64,000 bases of DNA from Haematococcus lacustris (taxonomy: Eukaryota; Chlorophyta; Chlorophyceae; Chlamydomonadales; Haematococcaceae), in NCBI GenBank assembly GCA_030144725.1, contig JASKMD010000029.1, positions 14,790,280-14,854,279 of the forward strand, given 5' to 3'. Under the pieces are notes generated by a model. The model worked only from the letters and a program-made list of their open reading frames with translations, searched no databases and had not been told where the DNA came from. Each line of letters opens with the position of its first letter. Positions within the stretch are counted from its first letter, which is position 1. Below are positions 6,501-58,311 of the stretch, one piece after another. Made by a program: the position numbers and the translations under genes.

Positions 6501-6737
6501 AGCACCTTGGCTCTCAACCTTGAGCATTCATTGCAGTCGAACACACTAATTGTGAACCACTACAAAACGGTGTTTTTGCCTGTGTGGAGTTCCCATCGCA
6601 TGTGTATGCCATGGCCTACACATGGCATACACATGGTCACGGTCGCCTACCACCTACATCATTACCTGACCCCTGTGACAGGGCATGCGTAGAGTTGGCA
6701 TGACAATACATGCACTAAGCGTAAGCTGATGACAGCT
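6501..6737 (-). ncRNA. Conserved 3' region of Fanzor-like copy A (putative guide RNA)
   Basis: This non-coding stretch directly follows the stop codon of the nuclease-like ORF on the minus strand and is nearly identical to 33021-33263 after copy C. Diverged versions occur at 32482-32700, 35318-35475, 45050-45230 and 58094-58311. Shared blocks are GTTGGCATGACA next to the ORF, a palindrome around 6598-6636 (CATGTGTATGCCAT and ATGGCATACACATG with a 9-base loop) and the terminus CAGCACCTTGG at about 6510. In TnpB and Fanzor elements the guide RNA overlaps or follows the 3' end of the nuclease gene, so this is the expected position. The RNA itself is inferred. Confidence 0.5.
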
Positions 6738-7896
6738 TCAAATGGGGGGGGCTTGCTGCTGCTGGGCCTTGGGTGGCTTGTCTCGCAGCCGCTTGTAGCC
6801 CAAGCCAGGGTACTCCTTGCCCTTGGCTGGCAGCTTCCCCTGCTCTGGCCAGTAGCACAGCTCCAGCGGCCGCCACCTGCTCTCCCCAATGCGCTGCATG
6901 TTCAGGGCCGCATTGCAGTCCCTGTCCAGCCACCTGCCTGGCTGTGGTGCTGGCTTGGCTTTGGCAGCCTTGCCCTTGCCCTTTGTGGGCTCAGCTGCCT
7001 CTGGCTCAGCCTTGGTGCGCTTGGTGCGCTTGGCTGGCAGGGGAGTGCTGGGCCCTGGCTCTGAGGCTGCTGGCTGTGTGGCTGCCTGGCTGCTGCGTGG
7101 GGCCTGGGGGGACTTGCGGGGGGGCACTACTGGGCACCACATCATGCCCCTCACTGGCTGGTCACGCTGCTGGCTCCAGGCTGGCCGCAATAGGCGGGGT
7201 TCCACCTGCCCTGCTGGGGGCTTCCAGCCTGCAGGCCTGGTGGCCCTGCGCTTGTTCAGCTGCCTCTCACAAGGCTGCTGGCCATTCACCGCTGAGCTCA
7301 CGCGGCTGGTGCGGTGCTCATCCACTAGCACCACCCTGCCCCGCCGCTGGCCTGCGCCCTTGGGCCTGCACACCACCTTGCAGCAGGCACGCAACACCGC
7401 ATCAGCACCCCACCCACCCCGGGTGCCAATGCCAGCTGCACCAAAGAAGACCACCAGCTGCTTGGCATGCCCATGACGCTCCATGGAAACCTCGGCCATT
7501 CCCTCCTCCAACTGCAGCCATGCACACAAGGCAAACACATGGTGGCTGACATGGTGGCGCCAGGTTAGGCATGGCACAGTCAACTACCTTTTCATGTCAT
7601 GCCCATGCTTCCTACCAATCCACCACCTCCCAGCTCTTAACCCTCCCTCCCTCCCACCCACCCTCCCACCCACCCTCACCTTCTTGAAGAACTGCTCCAG
7701 TGTCCGGTCCTGGGCTCCGTACAGCCTCAGCCGCTGCTCTGCCCACTTGGGGTCCAGGTACACCTCCCACACCGCATCCCAGGTGGTCAGGGTGACGGTG
7801 ATGTGCTTCAGGTTGGCCTCCAGGGAGGTGCCAGCTGGGCTTGCTGCTGCCAGGTGCTGGAGGTGGGGCTTGATCGGTGCCAGCCACCGCTCAGTG
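6738..7896 (-). CDS. Fanzor/TnpB-like RuvC nuclease, family 1 copy A (5' truncated)
   Basis: Two exons, 7680 to about 7896 and 6738-7511 (stop 6738-6740), join in phase across a GT-AG intron. Exon 2 is open for 258 codons. Visible motifs in order: WDAVWEVYLDPKW in exon 1; FFGAAGIGTRGGWGADAV; VVLVDEHRTSR, matching the DExRTS segment before the zinc ribbon of Fanzor proteins; and LDRDCNAALNMQRIGES, the RuvC-III D-R-D-x-N-A-A-x-N motif. The zinc ribbon is degenerate: where CxxC is expected the sequence reads VSSAV, leaving only QQPC and WCP. The RuvC-I Asp region is missing because the 5' end stops at a short tandem repeat (7897-7940). The proteins are RNA-guided DNA nucleases in studied members; activity here is doubtful. 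Exon 2 has no stops, so this copy decayed little. Confidence 0.72.
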
Positions 7897-7940
7897 TTAC
7901 GGGCCGCTCAGTGTTACGGGCCGCTCAGTGTTACGGGCCA
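7897..7940. repeat. 17-bp tandem repeat, GCCGCTCAGTGTTACGG
   Basis: Two and a half copies at the 5' truncation point of Fanzor-like copy A. The first copy overlaps the coding sequence for TERWLAP. It looks like a local duplication at a break or insertion junction. Confidence 0.85.
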
Positions 7941-8196
7941 CTTTCAGTCATAACTCCCCCACCCTTCCCCTAGCCCACCCCAACCCACACCCGTATCAAC
8001 ATCTTCGCCACCTTCTTGCATCAATGCATCACCTTCTTGCATCAATGCCACCTTCTTGCATGTATTTAGCATCAGCGATACATAGTGTTCATCACCGCCT
8101 CTCAACGGCGCACCGTAAACATTTCGTCAACTCACTTCTCTTGTGTATGAGCTTGCTATGAAAATGCGGGTCGATAGGATGACTTGACGTGAAATG
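7941..8196. other. Gene-free stretch with CTTCTTGCATCAATG repeats
   Basis: I see no gene. Short direct repeats of CACCTTCTTGCATCAATG lie around 8008-8062. Confidence 0.6.
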
Positions 8197-8262
8197 TACG
8201 CTCTTGCGTGGGGTCGAACCCGTAACCTCTCGCACTTGGCTACTAAGCTACTGAGCCAGGCT
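8197..8262 (-). other. tRNA-like sequence with box A and box B, probably SINE relic
   Basis: On the minus strand the sequence has a perfect box A TAGCTTAGTAG and box B GGTTCGACCCC. A D-arm GCTT/AAGT can form. The stretch between the D and T arms is about 10 bases too short for an anticodon arm, so it is not a functional tRNA. A tRNA-derived SINE or deleted tRNA pseudogene fits best. Confidence 0.4.
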
Positions 8263-8330
8263 ATAATTATAGTCCTATAGCCTATAATTATAGCTTTTTA
8301 TAGGAATCCGAGCCAACTATAATTATATGG
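8255..8330. repeat. AT-rich palindromes, CTATAATTATAG repeated
   Basis: Three occurrences of the self-complementary CTATAATTATAG or its variant ACTATAATTATAT in 75 bases, sharply AT-rich against the G+C-rich surroundings. It directly adjoins the tRNA-like sequence and may be the end of a small mobile element. Confidence 0.6.
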
Positions 8331-8510
8331 GCGTACCCTAGTTACGGCGGGCATTGTTCAGGCCACTGCCATGCTTGACCTCGCCCTTGGTCAGCTTCCA
8401 TTCGGCCTCGCGTGTTTAAACCCTTTCAGCAATGTCAGTGCACGCCATCTAAGTATGGCAACACCTATCACTGACGTCATGTGGTTCATGGACCGAATGC
8501 ACGAGAGTAA

Positions 8511-9792: not shown

Positions 9793-12028
9793 TTAAACAG
9801 TCACCCCCTCAAAGCGAGGAGCACTGCCATACAAGTACTCCTCGAACCGCTTCACCTCTCCCACTGAGCCAAAGCAGATCTCTGTGCGCTGGTCATAGTT
9901 CACGATGGGCACATCCAGCGCGCTGATCTGCTTGCCGTCAGCACTGGAGGCGCCACCTGCCTTCTCCACCTGCACCCATGACACCCCAGGCATGCACATC
10001 AGGTGCGGCGCCCCAGCTTGAACTCTGTTGCAATGGCGCCGACCCAGGGATGACAGGAAGGAGGACATGCAGGGAGGGTGCTGCAGTGGAGTGGGGCTGT
10101 AGTAGCCCATGTCTGATGCCACGCACCAGCAGTCCCAGGGGAGCGACCTCAAACAGGATGCGCAGCTTGGCCTTTGTGCTGGGGGAGGTCACGTTGGTGA
10201 AGACTCCCTTCTCCTTGACGATGATCTGGAAAACATCGGGGACCATGCCACCGGTGTATCTGCACACAGACACACAGCAGCACCGCTCAGGGATGCAGCA
10301 GCACCAGCCTCAGTTGCCAGGAGGGGCTCCTGGCCACTACAACATAGCAGCCCTCATCTGGTTGTAGCTAGCGAGACTGGGTTCTGCCCAGGGGTACTTA
10401 AACCACCTAGATTGCTCTGGCTCTATAAGTTTGCCATGCTAGTGAAGGCTGGCAGTGGCCAGACCGAGCTGTTTCACTTGTGCCTGAAACTCAATTGACC
10501 ACATCGCCGACTGCTACCGGCACGATGAGGCACAGGCAGAGAGGGTTACCTGAGTGTGTACTTCTCGCCCAGGTAGTAGTTGATCAAGCGCTCATAGTTG
10601 GGGTTGTCAAAGGTGGCGCGCAGGTTGCCAGGAGCGAACAGCTTGCCCTCACCTGCTCCCAACCAGGTGGCACACAGCTTCTTGCAAACACGGCATGTGC
10701 CAACAGGCCCCATGCCCTGACAGCAGGCGAGCACTGTGCTTGGGCCTTCGGCTGTTCCTGGCTGACGCACCAATCTCAGTGGTGTCCTTCACGTGCAACC
10801 ATTTGCCGTCGTCCTGGAGCAGGAACTCGTGGCAGCCGGGGTAGTCCTTGAACGCCACCACCAGCACTGTGCGTGGGCCAAACACGCCCATGACAGCTGC
10901 AGCCTGCAAGTGGCGAGCCCCAGCGTGAGGGAATTCAGCCCCATGCCAGTAGGTCATCAGCAGAACAGAGGACCAGATACTTTTGTTGCTGTATCTTGGT
11001 GCATGCACGCAGCAGACCAGCATTACAGCTGGCGGGCATAGCCTGCACGGACTCACCTGCTCACGCCCGGTGATGCCCTGCAGCTTGTCCCCTGGCCAGA
11101 TGCCCACGATGGTGCCCACTGTGAAGTTGGTGTCAACAATGGAGCTGCCGTCCAGGGGGTCAAAGGCAACGGAGTAGCCAGATCCACCCAGATCAACTGG
11201 CTCAGGCACCTCCTCAGAGCATGCGTACTTCACCACGTGCTACAAAGTTGCAGGGCACAGCTGCACATGGGTGAGACCATAGGGCAGAGATCTACTGGCA
11301 GCACAGCTGCTGATGAGAGAGTGCACTGCATGATGTAGTGCTTCAAGTAGCGCTCACTGAGTAACGGAAGGCTTCGAAGAGCAGCTTGTCAGCCAGCATG
11401 TCAATTGCCAGCTGCTCGTCGCCGAAGGAGTTCAGGCATGCAGTGCCTGCGCATGAGGCGGTGCGGACCTGCGCGCACAGACACCGACATCATTAACCCC
11501 AAAAGTGTAGGCGCGTCCGGTCTAGGCGGGATCTTACCTTGTAAGCGATTGTTCTGATGGCCTCCGCAAGGCTTGCCATCAGCTGTCGGAGCTTCGGGTC
11601 AGATGTGGCCTCCACCAGCACTTCAGACAGGTTATCTCCCAGCTGCAGACAACATAGCATCAGGCAACCATTATGCTGCCAATGCGCCTGGCCTCTAACG
11701 CCAGTGCACCGCGGGTCGGACAACCTGATCCTCAACCGCAGCCCGGAGCCCACCTTCGCCTGCGTGACGACTGCACTCCGGCGGGACAGCGAGCGAGCTG
11801 TGCGCATAGAGCGCTTGCCTGCCTGGGTCACCACCGCTGTACCCTGGAACGAGCTTTGTGCTGAAATCCTGACGGAGATGCGACCAGGCACCTGCACCAG
11901 TTCATGGCCATGTCGCATGTCGTCAATGTCCTCCCAGCTTGGCCCCGCGACATCTTTTGGCGCACCTTAGGAGCAGACATGCGCGGCTGCACGGCACCAG
12001 TCAGCTTGGAGCTCATCATGGTGGCCAT
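9793..12028 (-). CDS. SEBP1: Sedoheptulose-1,7-bisphosphatase, chloroplast
   Basis: This Calvin-cycle enzyme removes the C1 phosphate of sedoheptulose 1,7-bisphosphate in the stroma. Nine exons are all phase-consistent: 11966-12028, 11754-11891, 11538-11642, 11358-11468, 11057-11239, 10771-10903, 10550-10652, 10127-10259 and 9793-9969, giving 381 codons plus stop, close to the usual 380-390. The first two exons read as a basic, Ser/Ala-rich transit peptide ([21 protein letters not shown]). The redox cysteine pair SCAGTAC, the metal site [29 protein letters not shown] and [17 protein letters not shown] are present. FBPase was excluded because these stretches and the cysteine spacing are SBPase-type. 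Thioredoxin control is expected from the cysteine pair. The junction 11966/11891 of the transit peptide is the least certain. Confidence 0.95.
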
Positions 12029-12881: not shown

Positions 12882-13719
12882 TCATACCCCTCCACCATTG
12901 ATGAGCTCCATTTCCCGCTCTGTCAACTGTCGTCTCAATGGCGCTTCTTTGACATACGTGGTGTTTGGACTGGGCACTGGTTTGGGGGCGCGGGGGAAGG
13001 CAGCTGGCGGGGGGACTGCAGCAACAGGAGGAGGCGGAGCTGGTGCTGGCATGCTCGGTGGTGGTGCAGCCGGTGCTGCAGATGGCACAGGCCCTGGAGC
13101 CTCTTTGCTGGCACCAGTGAGCTGCTCTGCTTCTGCAGCTGGCAGCGAGCTGATCTGCACCCCGCCTGCTGTTCTGCGAGGCGGGAATTGGATCATGTGG
13201 CGCCGGCCAGCTGTAAGTGCCTCGCTGGTGGTGGCTGGAGCAGCAGGCGCACTGCTGGCATTTGTGCTTTGGCTGCATCCAGGCTGGGTGGCTGCATCAG
13301 ACTCCCCCACCACTGCCAGCACAGCTCCGGGCCGAACAATGTCACCGACCTTGACCTAGACAAGGTGCACCAAATGCTGAGCTGGAATGCCGCACTAGCT
13401 CACATAGACAGGCAGTGAGGCATGACGGTTGAACAAGTATCTTGACAAATACCTTGACCGCTTGCAGCACGCCAGCAGCAGTGCTGCGCATGTCGATTGT
13501 GACCTTGTCGGTCTCCAACTGCGCTACTACATCGTCCACTGCAACACGCTCTCCCACGTTCTTCAGCACTGTCGAGACGGTTCCTTCCGATACGCTTTCG
13601 CCTAGAGCGGGTACTACTACGTCAGGCAGCGCCAGGTGCGGCGATGTGTGCAAACGGGCACACGGTCCAAATGCAAGCGCGCTAGGCAGCAGCTTGAACC
13701 CTCTTATGAGCGACATCAT
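12882..13719 (-). CDS. Lipoyl-domain protein with KGD4/MRPS36-like C-terminus
   Basis: Two phase-0 exons, 13453-13719 and 12882-13355, encode 246 residues. Residues about 1-30 look like a mitochondrial presequence. Residues 33-109 are a lipoyl domain of the 2-oxoglutarate dehydrogenase E2 type (VVVPALGESVSEGTVSTVL; lipoyl Lys72 in LETDKVTIDM). After a Ser/Ala linker, residues 140-150 (RRHMIQFPPRR) and the last residues 230-246 (RRQLTEREMELINGGGV) resemble the conserved ends of KGD4/MRPS36, the eukaryotic adaptor that holds E3 in the 2-oxoglutarate dehydrogenase complex. A Pro/Ala-rich linker separates them. The E2 catalytic core is absent and there is no room for it before SBPase. A role as swinging-arm adaptor of the complex is inferred. 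The alternative is an E2 gene broken downstream, but the ending matches KGD4 too well. Confidence 0.8.
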
Positions 13720-13874
13720 CTCAATGCGTTCCGCAGCACAACTGCCGTAGCCTCCGTGCCTAACTAGTTCGGTTGTGCAGTTACGGTCTTACATTTTCTG
13801 CCGCTCACCTGTCTCCTCCCTTGGAAAAACGTTGGCGGCGCTGGCTAGATCACTTTTTCAATGCTCACGAGCCT

Positions 13875-14045: not shown

Positions 14046-14168
14046 AGCGTAGACGTTATCGTAATGCCTCGGACAGTTAAGTGGACCGAAGCCAGGCCAG
14101 CGGTGAAGCGCGATGGGCCCGCCTCCACAACAGCACCTGGCACGCTAAGAAGTGCAAACTGCACACCG

Positions 14169-14814: not shown

Positions 14815-14960
14815 CCCCTCACAAAGGGGATGTGTGTGCGCTAGAGTCATGCATAGGGTAGGGTAGGGCTCCAGCGATTCCTAGGGTTAGGGACCTAGGT
14901 TAGGAACACACACCGGTCACTCACTCCCGGGGAGAAGTGAGGATAGGGATACAGAACGGC
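14815..14960 (+). repeat. Structured interspersed repeat, copy 1
   Basis: Begins with the small palindrome CCCCTCACAAAGGGG and continues GTGTGTGCGCTAGAG through to CACACACC. The ends pair (GTGTGTG with CACACAC) and an inner stem forms from CGCTAGAG and CTCCAGCG, suggesting a three-way junction. Other copies are at 20830-20961 and 31207-31310. TTAGGG telomere-type hexamers lie inside. Function unknown. Confidence 0.6.
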
Positions 14961-15516
14961 CTGTTGTCAGCTCACGCCAGTTCCGTCACTGCGCCGGCAT
15001 TCATCACCGAGCTGCCGCTGCACCGTCGGATCCTGTACGCCATCCACGTCAACAGGTGCCTCGAGGAGTGGCAGGTCCTCAACCACCCTGCACCCCCACC
15101 AAAGCAAGGCAGTGGCAGGGGCAAGGGCAGGGGCAAGGACACTCGATTGTTGCCACCGTCGAGCATCGCCATGCCACCGTCGAGCATCGCTAGCAGCGTC
15201 GCCCCTGTGGCCTCAAAACATAGTGCACCATTTACGAACGCCGAACGAAAGGCGAGCGGACCGTCGTGAAGGCGTAATGACGCATTGTGCGGGAGTGGTG
15301 CTAATCTACACACCACTGCGGCCTAGAACTTTTAGTAGAAGCTGTTGAACTTCCGACTACATTATTAGCCTTAAGGCTTTCTCATAGCTAGCCTCACTTT
15401 GCTGGTGTTGTACAGACTTGTCCGGCTAACGTCAAAGCTACATGAGTTCGAGTGACCTAGGGTTTAAATCATCATTTGCCCGAAATAATGAAGTCCATCA
15501 CTCTCTTGCACGGCGT
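14961..15516. other. Intergenic stretch, no gene seen
   Basis: Holds a small tandem repeat of GCCACCGTCGAGCATCGC (15151-15190) and AT-richer DNA to the right that is probably the arabinokinase 3' end. Confidence 0.5.
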
Positions 15517-21510: not shown

Positions 21511-21570
21511 AGACCTGACCTGACCTGACCTGACCTGACCCGACCCTGACCCTGACCCTGACCCTGACTC
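21511..21570. repeat. Short TGACC / CCCTGA array
   Basis: Five TGACC pentamers grade into CCCTGA hexamers, a small relative of the large array at 23.3 kb. Confidence 0.85.
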
Positions 21571-22840: not shown

Positions 22841-23328
22841 GAGCTAGACACAAGCTCGACACGCAAGCGGAGGGCGGGCGGGAGGGATCAGACCCAACAT
22901 TTCGAGCAAGGTAACGTAGCAATGGCCTACACACCTTGTGTGGCCTTACAGAGTTGCCAGGTAGTAGGTACTACTCACGCATGTGTGGAATGGCGCGGTT
23001 ACATCGGTTTGGCGTGCCATGTGAATCGATTTGACTGCGGCGACTGTCCTTGACTGTTTGCAGGGTCTACTGGGCCACGTCGGTCGCGGCGGTCTCTCGC
23101 GACGAGGCCCGCATGAGCTAACAATGCCTATATTTGAATGTCAAGATTTGAGCCGCCATAGCACCCAACACACTGCACAGTATTTAATGTTACAAGCTGC
23201 ACCGCATAGCCGACAGAGTCCTCTATCCAGGGATGTGCGAAACATTAATAGAAACAACAAGGCTGAGACGCGGCGTCGTTTTGATTACCAGGGGTCAGTT
23301 TCCTGACATTTTTTGTTAGTTGGGGACA

Positions 23329-24643
23329 CCTGACCCTGACCCTGACCCTGACCCTGACCCTGACCCTGACCCTGACCCTGACCCTGACCCTGACCCTGAC
23401 CCTGACCCTGACCCTGACCCTGACCCTGACCCTGACCCTGACCCTGACCCTGACCCTGACCCTGACCCTGACCCTGACCCTGACCCTGACCCTGACCCTG
23501 ACCCTGACCCTGACCCTGACCCTGACCCTGACCCTGACCCTGACCCTGACCCTGACCCTGACCCTGACCCTGACCCTGACCCTGACCCTGACCCTGACCC
23601 TGACCCTGACCCTGACCCTGACCCTGACCCTGACCCCGACCCTGACCCTGACCCTGACCCCGACCCTGACCCTGACCCTGACCCTGACCCTGACCCTGAC
23701 CCTGACCCTGACCCTGACCCTGACCCTGACCCTGACCCTGACCCTGACCCTGACCCTGACCCTGACCCTGACCCTGACCCTGACCCTGACCCTGACCCTG
23801 ACCCTGACCCTGACCCTGACCCTGACCCTGACCCTGACCCTGACCCTGACCCTGACCCTGACCCTGACCCTGACCCTGACCCTGACCCTGACCCTGACCC
23901 TGACCCTGACCCTGACCCTGACCCTGACCCTGACCCTGACCCTGACCCTGACCCTGACCCTGACCCTGACCCTGACCCTGACCCTGACCCTGACCCTGAC
24001 CCTGACCCTGACCCTGACCCTGACCCTGACCCTGACCCTGACCCTGACCCTGACCCTGACCCTGACCCTGACCCTGACCCTGACCCTGACCCTGACCCTG
24101 ACCCTGACCCTGACCCTGACCCTGACCCTGACCCTGACCCTGACCCTGACCCTGACCCTGACCCTGACCCTGACCCTGACCCTGACCCTGACCCTGACCC
24201 TGACCCTGACCCTGACCCTGACCCTGACCCTGACCCTGACCCTGACCCTGACCCTGACCCTGACCCTGACCCTGACCCTGACCCTGACCCTGACCCTGAC
24301 CCTGACCCTGACCCTGACCCTGACCCTGACCCTGACCCTGACCCTGACCCTGACCCTGACCCTGACCCTGACCCTGACCCTGACCCTGACCCTGACCCTG
24401 ACCCTGACCCTGACCCTGACCCTGACCCTGACCCTGACCCTGACCCTGACCCTGACCCTGACCCTGACCCTGACCCTGACCCTGACCCTGACCCTGACCC
24501 TGACCCTGACCCTGACCCTGACCCTGACCCTGACCCTGACCCTGACCCTGACCCTGACCCTGACCCTGACCCTGACCCTGACCCTGACCCTGACCCTGAC
24601 CCTGACCCTGACCCTGACCCTGACCCTGACCCTGACCCTGACC
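23329..24643. repeat. Large (CCCTGA)n telomere-variant array
   Basis: About 218 hexamers over 1.3 kb with only two CCCCGA variants near 23634-23660. Its reverse complement TCAGGG is one base away from the TTAGGG telomere unit. It adjoins a family 2 Fanzor-like relic on the right, as does the smaller array at 55650. The GQ and PD dipeptide frames are artefacts. Confidence 0.97.
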
Positions 24644-25020
24644 CAGTGACAGGCCTGACAGGCTGCTGAGCGTGGATGAGTTCCGCACCAGCTGTGTCAG
24701 CTCGTCAGTGCATGCCCGCCAGCCTTGTGAGCTGCCCCTGCCACGTGTCCGGCTTAGGCCCGCAGACTGGGTACCCCCAGCAGGCCAGGTGATCCAGCGG
24801 CTGGTGCGCCCAGCCTAGAGCAAGCGGCATGCTAAGTATGTGCGGGGCCTGTCGTGGTGCCATCAGGTGCCGCCCCCCCCCCACGCCCCCTGCCCCTACC
24901 CAGGGAACCCCCCCCCCCCCCCTTCCCCTGCCCAGGACGGCAAGCAGCGGCTGCACCGGGCTGCTGAGTACCGGCGGGGTATTGATGGCCGGGCCCGCAA
25001 CAACCCAAAGGGCCTAGCAT
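24644..25020 (+). pseudogene. Fanzor-like nuclease relic, family 2 copy B
   Basis: Reads SVDEFRTSCVSSSVHARQPC, then RLRPADWVPPAGQVIQRLVRPA with a TAG stop at about 24816, HAKYVRGLSWC, and finally RLHRAAEYRRGIDGRARNN. Compared with copy G at 55.9-56.5 kb, the RuvC-III segment between the Pro-rich linker and RLHRAAEY is deleted. It starts right at the end of the (CCCTGA)n array. It is certainly non-functional. Confidence 0.7.
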
Positions 25021-25245
25021 GTTTACACAGGCTGTTAGCCTTACAGAGCATTAAGCTGTTAGTTTTGGTGAGGTGCCCAGTGGTCAAGGGGGATTAGCCC
25101 CAGGAAAGAGTGTCATTGATATGGGGTTTGTAGTCATCAAGGGTACGACCGAGGATGCTACAACTTGATTGTAGTAGCTGAGTGAGATTACCCACAGCCC
25201 AACATGTTGTTCCTTGTTGAATGCGTTTTGTTTGCCCTGGAACTT
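25012..25245 (+). ncRNA. Conserved 3' region of family 2 (putative guide RNA), copy B
   Basis: Aligns by eye to 56522-56760 after copy G over about 235 non-coding bases, sharing GGGCCTAGCATGTTTACACAGG, AAGCTGTTAGTTTT, GATTACCCACAG and TTGTTCC. Conservation of a non-coding tail in two separately decaying copies suggests it is a functional part of the element. That it is a guide RNA is inferred from the TnpB/Fanzor layout. Confidence 0.45.
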
Positions 25246-25511
25246 CTACCTCTCTCATCTCGCTAGGTTTATCGAGCCAACTGCGTCGAGCCGACACTAT
25301 ATCCCAACTGTGCTACATGCACGTTACATGCTACGTTCGCGGCTTTGATGGCTGTAAGCTGACTCAGTTGAGACATGGGCACACTCTACTGTCCCACAGG
25401 CCGCTAAGCCTTAGCCTTCAATGCTCTCTAGCGGCCAGGCGGTCAGGCCTAGGTGTGTTTTCACCATGCAGCACCCGGATATCGAGCTTGTCGAAATGTC
25501 TCACTACTCCT

Positions 25512-32481: not shown

Positions 32482-32860
32482 AGCAGCACCTTGGTTCGCC
32501 ACCCAGAGCCTTCATTGCCGTGGAACACGAAGTGTGGACCACGACAAAGCGGTTCTTTTGTCTGTGTGGAGTTCCCATGCACGTGGCATACACATGGCTT
32601 ACACATGGCATACACATGGGCATGGTCGCCTACCACCTACACTATTGCCTGACCCAGAGGGCTAGGATGTAGAGTTGGCATGACAAACATGCACCGACTA
32701 TGAGCTGGGTACAGCTCAAGATAGGGGGCACACTAGTGTACATCAGCGTGCTGCTGCTGCTGCTGCTGCTGGGCCTTGGGTGGCTTGTCTCACACCCGCT
32801 TGTAGCCCAGGCCAGGGTACTCCTTGCCCTTGGCTGCCTGTGTGGCTGCGCTTTTGCTTT
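32482..32860 (-). pseudogene. Fanzor-like relic, family 1 copy D (3' end only)
   Basis: On the minus strand, codes for a remnant AAKGKEYPGLGYKRV.DKPPKAQQQQQQQH and then the conserved 3' tail down to CCAAGGTGCTGCTC. The tail keeps GTTGGCATGACAAACATGCA and the CATGTGTATGCC hairpin region with an extra unit. The RuvC motifs are gone. Confidence 0.65.
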
Positions 32861-32887
32861 TCGGTGCTCATCCGCTTCTTCCAAGTC

Positions 32888-33030
32888 ATTGCGCCACTAG
32901 GCTCATGTCAGTTACCACCTCATACCTGCTCATACCAGTGCGTCACTCCGCCACATCACTCTCGTACCTCAGGTGTGGGCATCACAGCGTGCTACATCAT
33001 CCTTACATCCATCTTTGGACCATCACAGCA
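32888..33030 (+). repeat. Segment duplicated on the other side of copy C (33829-34047)
   Basis: Both segments begin CATTGCGCCACTAGGCTCAT and end TTTGGACCATCACAGCA. The interior is diverged, and the second is longer because of a minisatellite. They bracket Fanzor-like copy C as direct repeats. Confidence 0.65.
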
Positions 33031-33483
33031 CCTTGGCTCTCAACCTTGAGCATTCATTGCAGTCGAACACACTAATTATGAACCACTACAAAGCGGTGTT
33101 TTTGCCTGTGTGGAGTTCCCATCGCATGTGTATGCCATGGCCTACACATGGCATACACATGGTCACGGTCGCCTACCACCTACATCATTACCTGACCCCT
33201 GTGACAGGGCATGCGTAGAGTTGGCATGACAATACATGCACTAAGCGTAAGCTGATGACAGCTTCAAATGGGGGGGGCTTGCTGCTGCTGGGCCTTGGGT
33301 GGCTTGTCTCGCAGCCGCTTGTAGCCCAAGCCAGGGTACTCCTTGCCCTTGGCTGGCAGCGCTCCCTGCCCTGACCAGTAGCACAGCTCCAGCGGCCGCC
33401 ACCTGCTCTCCCCAATGCGCTGCATGTTCAGGGCCGCATTGCAGTCCCTGTCCAGCACGGCGCCACCCGGGACTTTGATGACC
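33021..33483 (-). pseudogene. Fanzor-like relic, family 1 copy C (RuvC-III exon plus 3' tail)
   Basis: Coding part 33258-33483 reads VLDRDCNAALNMQRIGES and GKEYPGLGYKRLRDKPPKAQ, almost identical to copy A. The tail 33021-33257 is nearly identical to 6501-6737. Upstream the frame continues into unrelated sequence (MMCRPCQNVDCAWSP), so everything 5' of RuvC-III is missing or replaced. Near identity with copy A indicates a recent common source. Confidence 0.7.
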
Positions 33484-33828
33484 TGCGGCGACCAAGCACA
33501 ATCAACATTTTGACAGGGCCGGCACATCATGCGGGGACACAAACGAAGCGGGGACACGAACAGTGCGGGGTCAGTCAATGCGGTATGCGCCCCCGTGCGC
33601 ACCTGTCGGCGCTGGGTGTTCCATTCAGCCCTTCGCTCCTCGCGTTGTCTGCCTGGAGGGGTCCTAGGACCTGCGCTGGCATGAACAGTAGCGATGTGAG
33701 CAGCGCGGAGCTCACTGGACTGCACAGTTGCAGCGGACCACACCACGACTACGACGAACCTTGTTTTCGCGGGCTTTCAATCGGAAGCGGATCTTGCTCC
33801 GCGGCACTGGGCCGCTTCCTCGGAGGCA

Positions 33829-34047
33829 TTGCGCCACTAGGCTCATACCTACCAACACCCTGCTGAGCTCCTACTTATACCCAGGAGGCGATGTCACTCA
33901 CTCTAGCACAAAGGGCACACTCCCAAAGGGCACTCCGACCAAAGGGCAAAGGGCACACTCCCAAAGGGCACACTCCCAAAGGGCACAGGGCACTCCGACC
34001 AAAGGGCAAAGGGCACTCCGACCAAAGGGGGTTTGGACCATCACAGC
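33829..34047 (+). repeat. Second flanking segment with AAAGGGCAC minisatellite
   Basis: Partner of 32888-33030. From 33907 to 34030 it contains a minisatellite of AAAGGGCACACTCCC and AAAGGGCACTCCGACC units, about 8 copies in all. Confidence 0.75.
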
Positions 34048-34401: not shown

Positions 34402-35265
34402 CCCAGTGCAAGGCGCTGTTGAGGGCTTGTGTGTGCAGGCCAGGGGCACAGACTAGTGGCGGGCAGGCTGGTGTTTGTGGATGAGTTGGGTATCAGCTGA
34501 GTAAGGCCAGCAGCTGCGACAGACTCCACAAAGGCTGGGGGAGGCTAAGCACGGTACAGGTGACCCGGCCATGCCCAGCCCCCCCTCCTCCCCCTCCTCC
34601 TCTTCCCCTTCCTCCTCCCCTTCTGCCTAACCTATCCGACCCTACTAGCGGCCTGGTGCGGTGTTACTGCTGACGCTGGCTGGGGTCTCAATGTACAGGT
34701 CCACGATGTAGTTGGAGTTGTCAGTGACATATGGCTTGTCGCTGGCCATGCAGAGTTTTGACCCCTGCCTGGCGTGAGCAGCCTGCCAGGTCTGCAGGCT
34801 GGAAGCCCCCAGCAGGGCAGGTAGACCACCGCCTGCTGCGCCCAGCCTGGAGCTAGCAGCCTGACCAGCCAGTTCGAGGCCTGATGTTGTGCCCGGTAGT
34901 GGCCCCCTGCATCCTGCCACAGCCCCCATGCAGCCAGGCAGGAACGCAGGCGGCAGCCTCGGAGCCTGGGTCCTACAATCACACGTCAGCCAAGCGCAGC
35001 AAGCGCACCAAGGCTGAGCAACCAGCTGAGCCCACCCAACATTACCTAGGGCACAGGGCAAGGCTTCCAAAGCCAAACCAGCAACACAGTCAGGCGGGTG
35101 GGTAGACAGGGATTGCAACGCAGCGTTGGACATGCAGCGCATCGGGGAGATGAGGTGGCACCTGCTGGAGCCATGCTGGTGTTCGGACCTCCCTAAGCTG
35201 CCAGCCAAGGGCACACAGTACCCACACCTGGGCTACATATGGCTTCGAGACTTGCCACCCAAGGC

Positions 35266-35296
<31 letters not shown>

Positions 35297-35475
35297 CAGC
35301 CTGCTGTGGCACAGTAGTGTGTGGCCCCTCTCTTGAGCTGTTATCAGTTTACAATCAGTGCATGCATGTCGTATCAACTCTAGACTATGGCCTTGTCACA
35401 GGGGTCAAGTGAAAGGCTCTTATGCCATGTGCATGGGAGCATCACCCCACACAGACAAAACATCACCCCGACTCT
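34402..35475 (+). pseudogene. Fanzor-like relic, family 1 copy E, with an inserted RPI fragment
   Basis: 34402-34490 matches the coding stretch for ACCKVVCRP to VFVDE. The match then breaks, and resumes at 34776 with SLQAGSPQQGR in one frame, equivalent to RPAGWKPPAGQV, continuing through SAKRSKRTKAEQ. A frameshift follows, and 35100-35317 reads VDRDCNAALDMQRIGEMRW to KAQQQQ. The tail 35318-35475 is the conserved 3' region. Between the two coding parts lies about 285 bases that include the RPI-derived fragment. Non-functional. Confidence 0.7.
34655..34758 (-). pseudogene. Fragment of ribose-5-phosphate isomerase exon 2
   Basis: On the minus strand it reads MASDKPYVTDNSNYIVDLY, then IETPAS, compared with MAGDKPYVTDNSNYIVDLY and FETPIS in the true gene at about 29095-29175. 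DNA identity is high over about 85 bases. It lies within Fanzor-like relic E. Confidence 0.85.
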
Positions 35476-44933: not shown

Positions 44934-44939
44934 CAGTGT

Positions 44940-45230
44940 TGCTTGCTTTCCTGAGCTGGCAGCCAATAGCATGGAGTACCATGCGTTGGGGTACAAGCGG
45001 TTGTAAGACTAACCACCCAAGGCCCAGCAGCAGTAGCAGCCTGCTGAGGCTTAGTAGTGTGTGCTCCCCTTCGAGCTGTCATCAACTTACAGCAGTGCAT
45101 GCATGTCATGCCAATTCTAGGCTATTGTCCTGTCACAGGGATGAGGCAATCGTGCAGGTAAAAGGCGCCTATGCCATTCGCATGGGGACGTAATCCCACC
45201 CAGACAAAACACCACCCGTGGTAAGAGGAC
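44940..45230 (+). pseudogene. Fanzor-like relic, family 1 copy F (3' tip)
   Basis: Directly outside the right duplication of transposon copy 2. It reads MEYHALGYKRL, stop, then PPKAQQQ, stop, equivalent to KEYPGLGYKRLRDKPPKAQQQ, followed by the conserved tail (AGTGCATGCATGTCATGCCAATTCTAG, CCCAGACAAAACACC). Confidence 0.6.
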
Positions 45231-49490: not shown

Positions 49491-49503
49491 TGAGGGGTAT
49501 GAG

Positions 49504-51120: not shown

Positions 51121-51128
51121 GGTATGAG

Positions 51129-51818: not shown

Positions 51819-51965
51819 ACAATTTACAGGGTAATATCGCCACTCCGACGCCAACCTGGCATACGCTATCAGTGGGAGTGACAAGGCGACATTACAATAC
51901 ACACACGGCACGCTAAGAGTCCAGGGCGGCTGCTAGGCTGGTGCCACACACGGCCAGCCTCCTGC

Positions 51966-53321
51966 TCACACCCACACATGGCACGCCTCACGTTGTGATG
52001 CCTTCGATAGGTCTTTGCAAAGGAGATTCATACCATGGGCAGTGCAGCCAATGATGACGATGGTGGGCATCGCACGTTGTAGCATGCGCATCGCACTTAG
52101 GTTAGCTGACGTGTTGTCCATGATGAAGCCAAGGCACATGACAGAATCCATGTCAAGATCTTTGCGGAGGTCATGCAAGATCTCCATGTGCTGCTCCATG
52201 ATGGCCAAGGCATCCTTGCGCTTGCCAGACACGTCCACCACTCGCAAGAACAGCATGCCGCCATCAGGTTTCAAGACCAGGAAGTTGATGAGGGGCGTCT
52301 TGTTGCACGTCATGCATGCTGGGCTGGGCTGGGCTGGGCTGGGCTGGGCTGGGCTGGGCTGGGCTGGGCTGGGCTGGGCTGGGCTGGGCTGGGCTGGGCT
52401 GGGCTGGGCTGGGCTGGGCTGGGCTGGGCTGGGCTGGGCTGGGCTGGGCTGGGCTGGGCTGGGCTGGGCTGGGCTGGGCTGGGCTGGGCTGGGCTGGGCT
52501 GGGCTGGGCTGGGCTGGGCTGGGCTGGGCTGGGCTGGGCTGGGCTGGGCTGGGCTGGGCTGGGCTGGGCTGGGCTGGGCTGGGCTGGGCTGGGCTGGGTC
52601 TGGGCTGGGCATGGAGGACTGGGAGGGGGTGGATGTGGGGGGTGGGGGAATAGGAGGGGGAGGGGGGGGGGGGAAGGGGGAGGGGAGGGGGGAAGGACAA
52701 GCATCTCACCTTACCTAGCTCATGGAGCTCCTTCATGGTCACCTGTTTGACCTCCTGGTAGAGCTCGTCGAGCAGCTGCGTGCGATAATGCTTCTCCTTG
52801 AGCAGCTCGAGCCCCAAGAGCTGGAAGGCAGCCTGGAGATGGATATTGTTCACGGTCATGAAGGGAGCTTGTTGCGTGACGAGAAAGAGTCCTATTCGGC
52901 GCCTGACTGCCCGCTGCATGTCTGCAGACACTGGTGCACCCTTGTCCTCGCGCAGCAATGGCCGAAACTGGGTGTCATGGCTGCGCTTATTCGCTGGGTG
53001 TTGTTCACCGTCGACCTGACATTTGTGCCGGGAGTGCAGCTGCCTCATGTTGGCGACGTTCAGCTGGGTTCGCTTGCATACGCACACCTCGAAGAACCAG
53101 TCGCGTGAGAACGTGCTGGCCGCAGCCTGTACCATCACCTCAGGGGCCATATGTACACCATTGTAAGACTGTGTGGTACCATCCATAGCAGACCACAAGC
53201 GATAGCACCAAGCAGTCCAGACACGGGAGACTAACCGCTGCCCGCGACCCAATTTTTTTTTTGGACGCGGAGGGCATTGCGACTTGTGCGGCAGAATGCA
53301 CGGGCCTTTAGCAAGCAGCAA
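51966..53321 (-). pseudogene. hAT transposase, broken (DUF659 part)
   Basis: One open frame spans both sides of a 5-bp satellite. Right of it, residues read [18 protein letters not shown] and [18 protein letters not shown], an N-terminal DUF659-type region. Left of it, [22 protein letters not shown], then [19 protein letters not shown] and [18 protein letters not shown], the (T/D)DNaaN and CxAHxxNLLxKD segments of hAT transposases. The expected SDGW motif just before TPLINF is lost at the satellite border. The C-terminal dimerisation domain is missing because the frame runs into the 83-bp repeat unit and stops. It is likely dead. Confidence 0.78.
52317..52597. repeat. (GGGCT)n pentanucleotide array inside the hAT transposase
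   Basis: About 56 perfect GGGCT units, read on the minus strand as PAQPS repeats. The unit has no stop in any frame, which keeps the surrounding frame artificially open. Flanking donor-like and acceptor-like sequences suggest it expanded in an intron. Confidence 0.97.
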
Positions 53322-54600
53322 CAGCGCTAAACAGCGCTAAACATTAATACTATTAATACCTGGGTATTATCAAAATCTGGCCGGGAACGCCCTAGACGAG
53401 AGGCTGCTGACTGCCGTCCAATGGGAGGTCTTCATGGTCTCTCTATTAGTCTTTCTTTCTCCTGTAATCTCTTTCTCTCAAAAACAAAAAATGGTATCTT
53501 CTTGGTACACTTAGTCTTGTATTAAATATAAACTGTAAACAATCAAGAAGGCTGCATAAAACTGAACAGTTCTGCACTTTTCCGAGCGCAGCAAGTTCCC
53601 TGCTGCACGCTGTGTGAGGTGTGACTCACGAAAAAGCACCTTTGAGGGAATTGTGCTGTCATATTTTCGCACACAAGCCTCGCACGCAAGCCCATAACTG
53701 ATATCCACAGCAAATGGAAGCAACGCAAATGAGCACACAGAACTTGCGTGATACCCGAAGGGTGCTGCAAGTGTTGCTGCCCAGCTTACCACCACCAGCC
53801 CTAGACCTCTGCTGCAATGTTATCCAGCAGAGCGTTTCTGTGCAGCAGAGTGCCCAGCAGTCCCGGGAGCCCGAAGGCCAATTTCGATTGCGCAGGATGG
53901 ACAGGTGCGCACGGGCCAGCCTTGGAATGGCTACTGTAAACAAGGGCGAGCAGCGGGGAGCCAGCCCCGGCCACGCACGGACAACAGCCATGCCTGCGTC
54001 AGCTCATCGTAGGCCCTCACATCGTGCTGACGCCGCACCTGTGCGCAGTGGGGACCTATCGCAGTATAGCCTAACCCAGCCGTGGCCAGGCAAGACGGAC
54101 AAGAGGTTCTGCGAGAGCTTACGGCCATCATCATTCAGCTTCAACGCACCGACGGAGCCACAGCTGACTCGGGCCTGACAGCGATGGCCAACCTTGACGT
54201 GTATGTACCATATATGTATGGCCTCCACGGCGTGTGGTGGGAGGTTGCCTGCCGCGCTGCAACAGCACAGCTGGCTACTGCCCAGTGCACAGGGCTATTG
54301 TGAGCAGGCTGAGCCGTGTGTTGCTCGGGCAAGTCCTGTGCAGCTTGCCAGGCATGTGCATTATCCTCTGCATTACATCACATTGCACAGGGATTGACAG
54401 AATGTGCTCAGTGCAGAATGCATTTGCACGCCACATTGAAGTGCATGTGTACATTGCTGCTCCTGTCCCTTGCCATCCCTTGTCTGTACACCACGCCTCA
54501 TCATTAGTGATCCAGAGGAGGCAATGTGCTCCTGGAAATATGAACCAGTGCATAGACAAGCATGGCTGCATTCACCACACCCTGATGCTGGTGTCAGGTT
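53322..54600. other. Region without a confident gene
   Basis: A plus-strand frame at 53714-54178 has mixed composition (RREPEGQFRLRRMDRCARASL-like) but no recognisable domain. 53330-53360 contains TAAACAGCGCTAAACA and ATTAATACTATTAATACC repeats that may be the outer end of the hAT element. Decayed N-terminal Fanzor sequence may begin near 54400. Confidence 0.4.
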
Positions 54601-56526
54601 ATGCACCGTCGACAGAGAGGGGTGAGCATGGTGGTGCAAATGCAAGGTTCGTTTCTGTGTGCTACGGTGTGGTTTCTTCTTTTGAGAACACTAAGGTTGA
54701 TGTGCCAAAACCAGGGTTATAATCAGGGTGTCCACATGGACATGTTTGCCTGTGTAACTCTGCTATTAGTATCTGGGGAGCCAGCTCAGGCAAGGAACCT
54801 GTCTACTAACAACATTGTTCATACACTCGTGAGAGATTGTTTGGACGGTTCCTTCTCGTGCTGTTTGCATATCAGCCATAAGTGATGCCCACATGGTGGA
54901 GCAAGGCGGGAAGGCCCGATAGCGCTACTGAATGACAACCTAGCAGAAGGAAAATGTGGCAGGGCACGCACACATGTCATTGAGGTGAAGTTTCCCCGCC
55001 ACCGGTCCAGGCCCGCAAAGTGGGTGCCCTGCAATGGGCACGTACGTGTTCCAATGGCACATAACCTGCAGCCTATGGAATGACGTCAAGCAAGTGCGGG
55101 GCCCTGACATGGTGGTCCAGCGACTTCAACCCTGACACCCACATCGCAGTTAGGGTGGACCCAGGCGTCACTCAGGCCATCAAGGCAGCGCATGCAGAGC
55201 GGGACCCAGCAACCGAGCAAGTGTGGAGGAGGTAGGAGTGGGAGCTGAGCAAGGGGCAACTGAAGCATGACAGCGGGCTTACTATAGCAAAGCGACAAAG
55301 CCCGTTCGTCAACTGCAATCAAGCTGCAGCAGCTGCCACCCTAGCTGGCACCACCCTGGATGGCCTCCAAGCCCACATCTTGGCTCTATGCCAAATGGGA
55401 CGTGCTGTGGGAGGAGTACCTCAAGCCACGGTGGCGCAGGCAGTGGTTGGGGCTGTTTTATGCCTAGGAGCGTGTCATCGAGCGTTATTGCAAGAATGTA
55501 TGACCTGACCTGGTACCTGACCCGACCCAGACCTTGACTTGGGGAGGAGGGGATGAAGTGGGTGTCACAGTTCTTTTCTCAGTCTTTTACCTTTGAGGAT
55601 TGGCTTGTATCCCTGCCTCCTATGTGTAACAACACTACCACTACTATCATGACCCTGACCCTGACCCTGACCCTGACCCTGACCCTGACCCTGACCCTGA
55701 CCCTGACCCTGACCCTGACCCTGACCCTGACCCTGACCCTGACCCTGACCCTGACCCTGACCCTGACCCTGACCCTGACCCTGACCCTGACCCTGACCCT
55801 GACCCTGACCCTGACCTGCAGGTGGTGAATGGGATGAAGTGGGTGTCACGCCACCACCACCACCATGAGAGGGGAGTGGCTGTTTTCCTGGGAGCGGGCA
55901 ACTTCAGCCAGGGTGGGTGGAAGGCGGGGGCGGTGAGGGAGGGGGTTTCGCAGGGTGGTGGAGCAGCCCAGCAGGCCCAGTGACAGGCCTGACAGGCTGG
56001 TGATCGTGGATGAGTTCCGCACCAGCCGTGTCAGCTCGGCTGTGCATGCCCGCCAGCCTTGTGAGCTGCACCTGCCACGTGTCCGGCTTAGGCCCGCAGA
56101 CTGGGTACCCCCAGCAGGCCAGGTGATCCAGCGGCTGGTGTGCCCAGCCTGGAGCCAACAGCATGCTAAGTATGTGCGGGCATGCTGTGGTATCATGAGG
56201 TGCCGCCCACCCCCCCCTCCCCCAGCCCAGGACCAGCCCCTCCCTGTTGCACCAGGCCCAGTGCAACGACCCCAGGCCCCCCATGGGGCATGTGGCTGGA
56301 ACAGGACACCAACGGATGCCTGAACTTCCAGCGCATTGGGGAGAGCACGCAGCGCCCCCTGGAGCTGTGCAGCTGGACGGACTGGGAGTCTCTGCCCCCC
56401 ATTGGCAAGGAGTACCAGCAGGGCTACAAGCGGGTCAGTGACCGGTTGCACAAGGGCAGGCAGCGGTTGCACCGGGCTGCAGAGTACCGGCGGGGTATTG
56501 ATGGCCGGGCCCGCAACAACCCATAG
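54601..56526 (+). pseudogene. Fanzor-like nuclease, family 2 copy G (most complete)
   Basis: The longest member. At 54980-55070 it reads VIEVKFPRHRSRPAKWVPC. At about 55150 the RuvC-I motif VRVDPGVTQAIKAAHAERD appears (Asp codon 55158-55160), with a TAG stop at 55233-55235 where Trp is expected. 55340-55500 carries DGLQAHILALCQM and VIERYCKN-like remains. An intron-like part with a (CCCTGA)n array follows, then FLGAGNFSQGGWKAGAVR, LVIVDEFRTSRVSSAVHARQPC, VRLRPADWVPPAGQV, a frameshift near 56200-56280, and LEQDTNGCLNFQRIGES (degenerate RuvC-III, D and N kept) to RRGIDGRARNNP and TAG at 56524. Order and spacing match TnpB/Fanzor. Dead by stops and a frameshift. Confidence 0.68.
55650..55816. 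repeat. (CCCTGA)n array within family 2 copy G
   Basis: About 27 hexamers inside an intron-like part. The sentence GGGATGAAGTGGGTGTCAC occurs on both sides (55552 and 55831), so the array lies between short direct repeats. Confidence 0.95.
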
Positions 56527-56760
56527 GGCCTAGCATGTTTACACAGGTTGTAGCCTTTAAAGCATCAAGCTGTTAGTTTTAATGAGGTGTACAGTGGTTA
56601 TGGGAGAAAGCGCCCACGGTGTGGGGTTTGCAGTCACTAAGGGTGCGACGGAGGATGCTTCAAATTCCATGGAGTAGCTGCGTGAGATTACCCACAGTTA
56701 AACAAGTTGTTCCGTGTTGTATGAGTTTTGTTTACCTGAGTAAAGGCGGTCAGAGAAACA
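56527..56760 (+). ncRNA. Conserved 3' region of family 2 (putative guide RNA), copy G
   Basis: Homologous to 25012-25245. Shared blocks are CCTAGCATGTTTACACAGG, CATCAAGCTGTTAGTTTT, GGGTTTGCAGTCA and GAGATTACCCACAG. No reading frame is conserved between the two copies. Guide-RNA function is inferred from position. Confidence 0.45.
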
Positions 56761-56919
56761 TAGTCAGTGTTACAGAGTGCTGTGATTCAGACGGTGATTA
56801 GCTCTATGTCGTAGCTAGACCTGGACAAGTGGTCTTGGTGACTTGCTCGAGAGCACCGAGGACGGATGCTGTGTTTGGGGAGGTGCGCCTTCGGGTCAAT
56901 GTGGCGGCCCAGCAAGTCA

Positions 56920-58093
56920 CCCTGGCCACCAAGGGGGGAGGACTGGCGGAGGCGCCTAGGGCCACAAATGTCCAAGTTTAATGAGCTGCTGGCTCAGCTG
57001 GCACCTCCCTGGAGGTCTACCTGAAGCACATCACCGTCACCCTGGCCACCTAGGATGCGGTGTGGGAGGTGTACCTGGACCCCAAGTGGGCATGGCAGCG
57101 GCTGCGGCTGTACGGAGCTCAGGACCGGGCGCTGGAGCAGTTGTTCAAGAAGGTGAGGGTGGGTGGGAGGGTTATGTACTGAGAGGTGGTGGGTTGGACA
57201 TGAAGCCTTGGTGCATGAAGCATTGGGCATGAAGCCATGGTGCCACCATGTCAGCCACCCTGTGTGCCTTGTGTGCATGGCTGCAGTTGGAGGAGGAGAT
57301 GGCTGAGGTGGCCATGAAGCGCCATGGGCGTGCCAAGCAGCTGGTGGTGTTCTTTGGTGCAGCTACCATTGGCATCCGGGTAGGCTGGGGTGCTGATGCG
57401 GTGGTGCGTGCCTGCTGCAAGGTGGTGTGCAGGCCCAGGGGCACAGACCAGCGGAGGGGCAGGGTGGTGCTTGTGGATGAGCACCGCACCAGCCGGTTCA
57501 GCTCAGCAGTGAATGGCAAGCAGCCGTGTGAGGAGGAGCTGGACAAACTCAGTGCCACAAGGCCTGCAGGCTGGAAGCCCCCAGCAGGGCAGGTGGAACC
57601 CCGCCTAGTGCGGCCAGCCTGGAGCCAGCAGCGTGACCAGCCAGTGCGGGGCATGATGTGGTGCCCGGTAGTGGCCCCACGCAAGCCCCCACAGGCCCCA
57701 TGCAGCAGCCAGGCAGCCTCACAGCCACCAGCAGCCTCAGAGCCTGGGCCCAGCACACCCCTGCTAGCCAAGCATAGCAAGCGCATCAAGGCTGAGCAGG
57801 CAGCTGAGCCCACCCAGCCCACGGGCAAGGGCAAGGCTGCAAATGCCAAGCCAGCACCGCAGCCAGGCAGGTGGGTAGACAGGGATTGCAACGCAGCATT
57901 GAACATGGAGCTTATTGGGGAGGCCAAGTGGCGCCCACTGGAGCTGTGCTACTGGCTAGAGCAGGGGAAGCTGCCAGCCAAGGGCAAGGAGTACCCTGGC
58001 CTGGGCTACAAGCGGGTGCAAGACAAGCCACCCAATGCCCAGCAGCAGCAGCAGCAGTACGCTGAGGCACAGTATGTGTGCCCCCCATCTTGA
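56920..58093 (+). pseudogene. Fanzor-like nuclease, family 1 copy H
   Basis: Exon 1 (to 57152) reads SLEVYLKHITVTLAT, TAG stop at 57051-57053 where copy A has Trp, then DAVWEVYLDPKWAWQRLRLYGAQDRALEQLFKK; a frameshift precedes it. Exon 2, 57287-58093, is open for 268 codons: KQLVVFFGAATIGIR, VVLVDEHRTSRFSSAVNGKQPC, MMWCPVVAPRK, a Pro/Ala/Lys linker with nuclear-localisation-like KGKGKAANAK, WVDRDCNAALNM and KEYPGLGYKRVQDKPP. About 85% identical to copy A by eye. The broken exon 1 makes it a pseudogene unless exon 2 is used alone. Confidence 0.72.
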
Positions 58094-58311
58094 GCTGTTC
58101 TCAGCTTACAATTAGTGCATGTTTGTCATGCCAACTCTGTATCGTAGCCCTCTGGGTTAGGCAATTGTGTAGGTGGTAGGCTGCCATGCCCATGTGTATG
58201 CCATGTATATGCCATGTGCATGGGAACTTCACACAGACAAAAACACCATTCTGCAGTGGTCCACACTTAGTGTTCCACGGCAATGAAGGCTCTAGGTTTA
58301 GGGCCAAGGTG
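58094..58311 (+). ncRNA. Conserved 3' region of family 1 (putative guide RNA), copy H
   Basis: Follows the stop of copy H. Shares TTAGTGCATGTTTGTCATGCC, the CCATGTGTATGCCATGTATATGCC block and the end GGGCCAAGGTG with the tails of copies A, C and D. The conserved terminus CCAAGGTG marks the likely 3' border at about 58311. Confidence 0.5.

Follow-up and report, generated by a model that had tools for sequence, protein, structure and literature searches.

Dead fragments of a very abundant Fanzor-related mobile element in the green alga Haematococcus lacustris

What are the eight similar loci in a 64,000-nucleotide stretch of the Haematococcus lacustris genome (the window; contig JASKMD010000029.1, positions 14,790,280 to 14,854,279, forward strand), and can any of them encode a working RNA-guided nuclease? 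The initial annotation had read them as eight nuclease loci related to Fanzor and TnpB, in two families, each with a conserved 3' tail taken to be a guide RNA. Repeat copies are present at all eight places, as seen both in self-BLAST and in BLAST with a near-full-length element, and they are defunct remnants of a single, very large repeat family and of a second, related one. Very probably they descend from a high-copy, intron-containing mobile element of H. lacustris that encodes a protein of the Fanzor1 lineage, with steps of spread and guide formation that are set out conditionally below. The genome searches were made in the alga's own 308-Mb assembly, where the window is C166:14790280-14854279, and all candidate and protein counts from them are lower bounds.

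In self-BLAST, family 1 has copies at 6.5, 32.5, 33.0, 34.8, 45.0 and 57.0 kb, and family 2 at 24.6 and 56.0 kb. The places were thus annotated correctly; the borders of three copies had to be moved, copy A extending to 8341-8415, copy D to about 33.85 kb, and the protein of copy G starting from about 55.07 kb, with no match at 54.6 kb in the protein comparison or the profile search. Copy A (family 1, 6500..8415, minus strand; self-BLAST, element BLAST and profile) retains the end of the RuvC-I exon (8341-8415), an exon and an intron, the RuvC-II/III exon (6747-7907) and the tail, with its 3' end AAGGTGCTG at 6500. It is split by an insertion of about 430 bp at about 7908-8340, and the part with DPG is absent. 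The insertion contains ATAATTATAG repeats and, judged by eye, tRNA-like A and B boxes, resembling a short interspersed nuclear element; ARAGORN found no tRNA in the window. Copy B (family 2, 24642..25233, plus; self-BLAST, element comparison and profile) is a DEFRTS fragment with an internal stop followed by a tail. Copy C (family 1, 32484..32867, minus) holds only the 3' tail and the last coding residues, with one stop. Copy D (family 1, 33026..34031, minus) is internally deleted, with N-terminal exons at 33600-33846 and the RuvC-III exon and tail at 33026-33464. Copy E (family 1, 34728..35382, plus) is a degraded exon from RuvC-II to RuvC-III with part of the tail, and copy F (family 1, 44954..45150, plus) consists of the last coding residues and the start of the tail, matched as DNA only. 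Copy G (family 2, 55065..56733, plus) has RuvC-I (VRVDPGVTQ), a minisatellite at about 55650-55821, the DEFRTS exon, a degraded RuvC-III (QDTNGCLNF), the tail and in-frame stops. Copy H (family 1, 56952..58314, plus) is 5'-truncated and carries stops, an intron at about 57153-57286, the RuvC-II/III exon and the tail at 58094-58314, with the 3' end AAGGTGATG. In self-BLAST the tails of family 2 (24939-25233 and 56455-56733) align with one another at 82%, and BLAST with the near-full-length family-1 element gives no match at either of them.

The motifs DEHRTS or DEFRTS, FFGAA and LDRDCNAALNM in the window copies, and VRVDPGVTQ in copy G, are present as annotated. A comparison with the proteins P0136 and P0205 showed that every window copy is incomplete, with RuvC-I, RuvC-II or RuvC-III parts gone, stops, or both. 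The view of eight active loci was rejected, as all copies are fragments, deleted or stop-bearing. No copy amounts to a complete gene or can encode a working nuclease; a supply of guide RNA by the window copies is conceivable in principle. The gene model P0003 (QJQ45_011408) is a composite of parts of copies G and H, with an open reading frame (ORF) of the window, at 53.7 kb, as its N-terminus. The intron inside the coding sequence and the eukaryotic nature of the genome are borne out; contamination was rejected, since the window also carries algal-type metabolic genes, recognised by family only.

A six-frame search with a profile of relatives matched 17 window ORFs at E≤1e-3, 15 inside the copies and two elsewhere. 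Every copy except F was matched at this level, and the reversed window, used as a control, gave none. With a profile of independent Fanzors six window ORFs reached E≤1, every one within copy A, B, G or H; a single ORF came below 1e-3, and no ORF of the reversed window was listed. Pfam gave PF07282 for copies A (E 0.022), H (0.16) and D (0.15), all short of the curated cut-off, and no match for copy G. Taken alone the window copies thus came close to giving no significant match to the nuclease profiles, and membership was settled because relatives outside the window, whose matches are significant, were added.

Among 81 family members PF07282 matches 62 at E≤1 (best 9.6e-8), a count inflated by proteins with two or three modules, and independent Fanzors were gathered for this reason. 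A probe sequence retrieved 32 reference proteins, Fanzor-like by signature and PF07282, of which 29 have precomputed PF07282; organism names stand on three of the 32, all of them eukaryotes. All five that were tested pass the PF07282 cut-off, and two family proteins scanned alongside had no match. An alignment of 24 of the 32 was made into a profile. In hmmsearch, applied to 131 of the 240 listed family proteins, it detected 130 at E≤1e-3 and every one at E≤10, with a domain E of 2.4e-33 for P0136. Among 524 decoys, shuffled or reversed, none came below 1e-3 and five came below 10, the best at 0.71. In hhalign against 26 family proteins the same profile gave a probability of 99.5 and an E of 1.5e-22 over 287 columns, running from before TDGV, through DPG, to VDEHRTS. 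Within these columns the WED motif (TDGVSV), DPG, FGAA and DEHRTS are colinear, and RDxNAALN lies behind them. Judged from these alignments, membership of the family among the Fanzors, as the initial annotation had proposed, is supported. Other collections gave only weak matches: in NCBIfam TIGR01765 was found in 4 of 26 family proteins (best E 0.022), and in PHROGs the transposase phrog_506 in 2 of 26 (best 0.044). Adhesin matches in NCBIfam were dismissed, as they lie in an acidic repeat, and none of 52 pattern matches between the family alignment and viral contigs was confirmed.

The size of the family becomes apparent in the whole genome. The 3' tail has at least 40 matches (40 of 40 scored) among 4902 first-look candidates, and 38 of the 40 end within a few bases of the position equivalent to window 58314; of the remaining two, one is the window copy and the other a longer duplicate. 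The sequence behind this sharp border differs between copies. The tail of family 1 forms the 3' end of a mobile element. The RuvC-I exon was matched at ≥94% identity by all 150 candidates scored of 3447, 148 of them without a stop, and the 5' end was found at 41 places or more (40 scored of 1714 candidates). The three candidate numbers, 4902, 3447 and 1714, lean towards an excess of intact 3' over 5' ends, as would fit a Helitron2-borne Fanzor, but come from queries that differ in kind and length, and the loci L001-L030 were retrieved by the 3' tail and are of no use for judging an excess of 3' over 5' ends. A search with copy H gave 1170 similar proteins at E≤1e-3, all 120 listed being named Haematococcus lacustris, and a second protein search gave 315 at E≤1e-3 among 8000 candidates scored, with 120 listed. 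Full-length gene models have about 900 amino acids, such as P0134 (901 amino acids, 33 member sequences), P0136 and P0137. The element has several exons, and one intron is filled with a minisatellite. It is about 3.8 kb long in L061 and 3.6 kb in L062, and L063 is internally deleted (L053, L042 and L044 are the same three genomic copies). Its 5' part reads GTGTATTTTTCACGGGAAACCC...ATGGCTAAGAAGAAGCGG, with a variable start, and its 3' end ...CCCTAGTGAGGGACAAGGGGGCTG; the terminal sequences are GTGTATTTTTCACGGG... (5') and ...GGGACAAGGGGGCTG (3'). Near-full-length copies, at about 3.7 kb, match gene models of this size, and L062 may be without one splice acceptor. Many H. lacustris 'hypothetical proteins' consist of this element, and masking it in annotation is advisable.

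The elements lie behind CTG, with target duplications of 6-12 bp. An earlier test, confined to the vicinity of the element borders, gave nothing above 6 nt, and wider tests were adopted once internal deletions and extra 5' sequence had been recognised. When the start of the 3' flank was sought upstream of the element at 31 loci, there were ten matches of ≥8 nt at offset 0, and all ten were preceded by CTG; they include the related pairs L012/L014 and L015/L021, and single matches of 8-10 nt are within reach of the controls. Of 28 copies, 11 have CTG with a duplication of ≥6 nt, where permutation gave 0.45 on average and at most 3 in 2000, a significance that is overstated since related copies are counted as independent, as they also are in the pair counts given below. 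Left out of the 28 are the copy in the window with its duplicate (L001/L002), the near-duplicates L004, L021 and L026 (of L003, L015 and L024), the loci L027, L029 and L030, whose border was missing or lay at the locus edge, and those of L031-L060 without the 5'-end pattern in the fetched stretch. All six copies with a reachable 5' end have the duplication (11, 8, 12, 12, 10 and 6 nt). In the window, where the test covered copies A, C, D and H (for B, E, F and G the 3' end is a BLAST end only), copy D has the 12 bp TGATGGTCCAAA behind CTG on both sides: at 34032..34043 (minus strand) with CTG before it at 34044-34046, and at 33014..33025 (minus) directly behind the CTG end of the element. CTG also stands at the 3' end of the element itself, and for this reason the bases that follow it, the presumed guide, would come from the target. 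Extra DNA can lie between the 5' duplication and the element, as in L045. When 128 bases of it were tested, with 40 of 128 candidates scored, they fell into three stretches: one recurs at 2 other places, the next at 4 others, all on the same contig, and the third, found at 33 other places, most likely represents the 5' terminus of the element itself.

How the copies are made is less certain. In the explanation we favour the element would spread non-autonomously, synthesis starting at its 3' end and stopping, or switching template, at its 5' end, possibly with a rolling-circle helper like that of Helitron2. A considerable probability, short of even, has to be given to a reverse transcriptase of the LINE (long interspersed nuclear element) type acting on unspliced transcripts, target-primed through the shared CTG. 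The variable duplications of 6-12 bp, the CTG common to target and 3' end, and the 5' junction of L045, patched with two short segments from elsewhere on the same contig, are in line with this. It is opposed by the introns retained in the genomic copies seen and by the 3' borders seen, at which there is no A-run; moreover, the comparable Fanzor1 elements of Chlamydomonas reinhardtii share their ends with real Helitrons, according to the cited part of PMC3627910.

The catalytic positions of the RuvC domain are kept. DPG in RuvC-I is intact, as DPGVTQ, in 29 of 30 loci, and within the window in copy G only. Among the 240 family proteins VDEHRT is found in 219, DRDCNAAL, with the aspartate of RuvC-III (RDxNAA), in 199 and IDPG in 113, many of the rest being partial. 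The alternative glutamate of Fanzors is also kept, six residues before the first zinc-ribbon position, VDEHRTSRVSSAV being E-x6-S-x2-V. Most TnpBs have D-hydrophobic-G in RuvC-I, as opposed to DPG. The cited part of PMC10711439 gives two signatures of Fanzors, DPG and a glutamate that precedes the first CxxC by six residues.

It is at this CxxC that the family departs from other Fanzors. The glutamate motif occurs 250 times in 231 of the 240 proteins, followed by SxxV in 225 cases and by CxxC in none, and only 1 of the 240 has any CxxC within 90 residues of it. In the 32 reference Fanzors CxxC is present in 21 of 24 motifs, and the looser pattern E-x6-CxxC in 29 of 32 proteins. The distance from this glutamate to the aspartate of RuvC-III is 120-149 residues in 200 of 222 family cases as compared to 30-79 in 17 of 19 for other Fanzors, and the segment between them holds an insert rich in P, A and K. 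The C4 zinc ribbon (CxxC...CxxC) usual in Fanzors is absent here. Part of the text of PMC10711439 describes it in many TnpBs and Fanzors, and Bao and Jurka make it part of their strict Fanzor motif in the cited part of PMC3627910; because the former says 'many', we read the loss as a variant and not as an exclusion from the group. The loss is to be qualified, as the cysteine motifs QPCE (224 of 240) and WCP (217 of 240) are still common and make a remodelled metal site conceivable.

Exon 6, which includes the region without the ribbon, evolved under purifying selection. Its median ratio of nonsynonymous to synonymous substitution rates (dN/dS) is 0.36 with a 5-95% range of 0.21-0.58, from 375 non-independent pairs of 28 open copies (3 of 31 had no open exon 6; L053 and L061, the same copy, are both in). 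Measured against L042 in 23 copies, its mean divergence is 0.124 at four-fold degenerate sites and 0.043 at positions 1 and 2, while the intron has diverged by 0.098 and the tail by 0.074. These 23 are from 30 loci, L035, L036, L042 itself, L043, L046, L052 and L059 having been omitted beforehand; the apparent duplicates L048/L049 and L055/L056 were retained in both data sets. The four-fold divergence of exon 5 is only 0.062, for loci that had been chosen by similarity there. With a dN/dS of about 0.36, the ribbon-less form itself was under selection.

This selection need not have been for cutting. A somewhat smaller probability than that of the LINE-type mechanism goes to the view that the element is the same and its protein is no longer a nuclease, being instead a factor that binds RNA or DNA, for instance its own 3' end, a role kept by selection. 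This view is favoured by the loss of the first CxxC in 250 of 250 motifs, by the enlarged segment from E to D and by the PF07282 matches: of six with a known extent, five are confined to the last 14 positions of the profile. The catalytic motifs speak against a role in binding only, as a pure binding protein would not need VDEHRT, DRDCNAAL and IDPG at the frequencies given, or DPGVTQ at 29 of 30 loci. Still weaker is the idea of chance motif matches or of a repeat family that is not Fanzor, very improbable in spite of the sub-threshold Pfam matches of the window copies alone and the missing solved-structure match of copy H, and rejected in view of the hhalign result, the colinear motifs over 287 columns and the profile, which at E≤1e-3 finds all but one of 131 family proteins and not a single one of 524 decoys.

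Returning to the Fanzor1-type element as an RNA-guided nuclease, complete copies would make an RNA that binds the Fanzor and consists of the tail and the first bases of the flank. The target-adjacent motif would end in CTG and the guide would start right after it; each insertion would take the guide from its own insertion site and cut the uninserted allele. That the tail is a guide RNA, as annotated, is plausible by position. Young copies of a mobile element are expected to share their tail with or without a function as RNA. The tail of copy H folds with a z-score of -2.31, 4 of 200 shuffles being as good, and the tail is less diverged than the intron. According to the cited part of PMC10711439, the RNA of known Fanzor1s extends some 15 nt past the duplication, which can be part of the scaffold; here the variable bases start right after CTG.

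Several observations weigh against this explanation. A search of solved structures with single sequences, including copy H, and with the family profile gave no matches, and hhalign against a single bacterial TnpB, InsQ of E. coli, failed with a probability of 0.2. Window copies A and H gave no duplication, and copy C has only 6 nt at 1257 bases, which is at chance level. Of the 28 copies 17 showed no duplication of ≥6 nt, for L017 and a few more loci the match does not exceed the best control of the locus in length, L012 and L014 share one insertion site, and all six copies with reachable 5' ends belong to a set chosen by protein similarity. In the 41-row tail alignment only 3 of 32 predicted pairs have changes on both sides, so that covariation is weak. 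The element's own 3' end has CTG directly before the presumed guide, which would carry a risk of self-cutting if CTG alone were the target-adjacent motif. Finally, the zinc ribbon is usual in Fanzors and absent here, and nuclease activity may have been lost with it.

If complete copies do cut DNA, the zinc ribbon of Fanzor nucleases would be dispensable, and the genome would be a natural experiment with many near-full-length enzymes and thousands of candidate guide-bearing ends, from which the target-adjacent motif and the guide start could be predicted. CTG at both places would give a concrete view of how guide choice is coupled to the target choice of a transposon. We suggest only tentatively that Haematococcus has one of the largest eukaryotic sets of RNA-guided nucleases, with thousands of readable guides and a Fanzor that has a P/A/K-rich segment and two cysteine motifs in place of the zinc ribbon and is programmed anew at each insertion through the shared CTG. 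If there is no cutting, a Fanzor would have been kept by selection for another role.

The window contains other repeats and genes. A 3-kb repeat forms an inverted pair at 25510-28564 and 42467-44936, with pieces 86-92% identical in self-BLAST; its ORF 27293-28255 has no Pfam match, and copy F begins 18 bases from its end at 44936. Minisatellites of the CCTGAC type lie at 23300-24660, 55650-55821, 1851-2083 and 21511-21568. The intron of the element carries a related array, with matches at 55650, 1851 and 21511 (BLAST, low-complexity filter off), and the 1.35-kb array adjoining copy B may have its origin in an intron of this kind. The ORF 51969-53336 on the minus strand has DUF659 (PF04937, E 8e-11), a domain known from hAT-like transposases, with an AQPSP repeat inside it. 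Weak matches to the family profile at 14904-15266 (E 6.4e-6), 28554-28661 (0.0009) and 18284-18556 (0.0012) are possibly older remnants or low-complexity matches. Three host genes were recognised on the minus strand: ribose-5-phosphate isomerase A (29440-30153, E 1.5e-33), a member of the FBPase family (10652-11239, E 1.1e-23) and a lipoyl domain (13345-13788, E 1.1e-12). Outside the window P0124, P0224 and P0228, 3 of the 120 listed full-length models, have precomputed PF26935, which occurs together with PF07282 in 4 of the 32 other Fanzors, and P0224 has a second TDGVAVSV motif upstream; there may be a further Fanzor lineage in this genome.

In the open-access papers searched we found no description of this Haematococcus family, a paper on Auxenochlorella mentioning Haematococcus with regard to diploidy; the H. 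lacustris genome paper reports 47.3% repeats, and the word 'Helitron' does not occur in its main text (PMC7617258, in part). The family resembles Fanzor1 in being a eukaryotic mobile element with a colinear WED motif, DPG in RuvC-I, the rearranged glutamate, RDxNAA in RuvC-III and the profile match, and it differs in having no CxxC at the start of the zinc ribbon, a longer distance from E to D with the P/A/K-rich insert, and a very high copy number. Another close comparison is with CRe-1, CRe-2 and CRe-3 of C. reinhardtii, which the cited part of PMC3627910 describes as Fanzor1 in non-autonomous Helitron2 elements. Both are multi-exon Fanzor1 elements with copies that are internally deleted or truncated at the 5' end; in both, target duplications of variable length follow a fixed short motif, and some 5' ends carry extra sequence. 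According to the same source the target there is TTTT or T-rich, as compared to CTG here, and the duplications are about 7-19 bp, as compared to the 6-12 bp seen here; the loci number 150, 70 and 35 for CRe-1, CRe-2 and CRe-3, against thousands of first-look candidates in Haematococcus. In Auxenochlorella a Fanzor element, called uncharacterised, is the most abundant repeat in the cited part of PMC12636532, and by its description it is also a green-algal Fanzor repeat of high relative abundance. Fanzors in green algae are thus already known, even as the most abundant repeat of a genome, and the Haematococcus family without a zinc ribbon is a variant of these.

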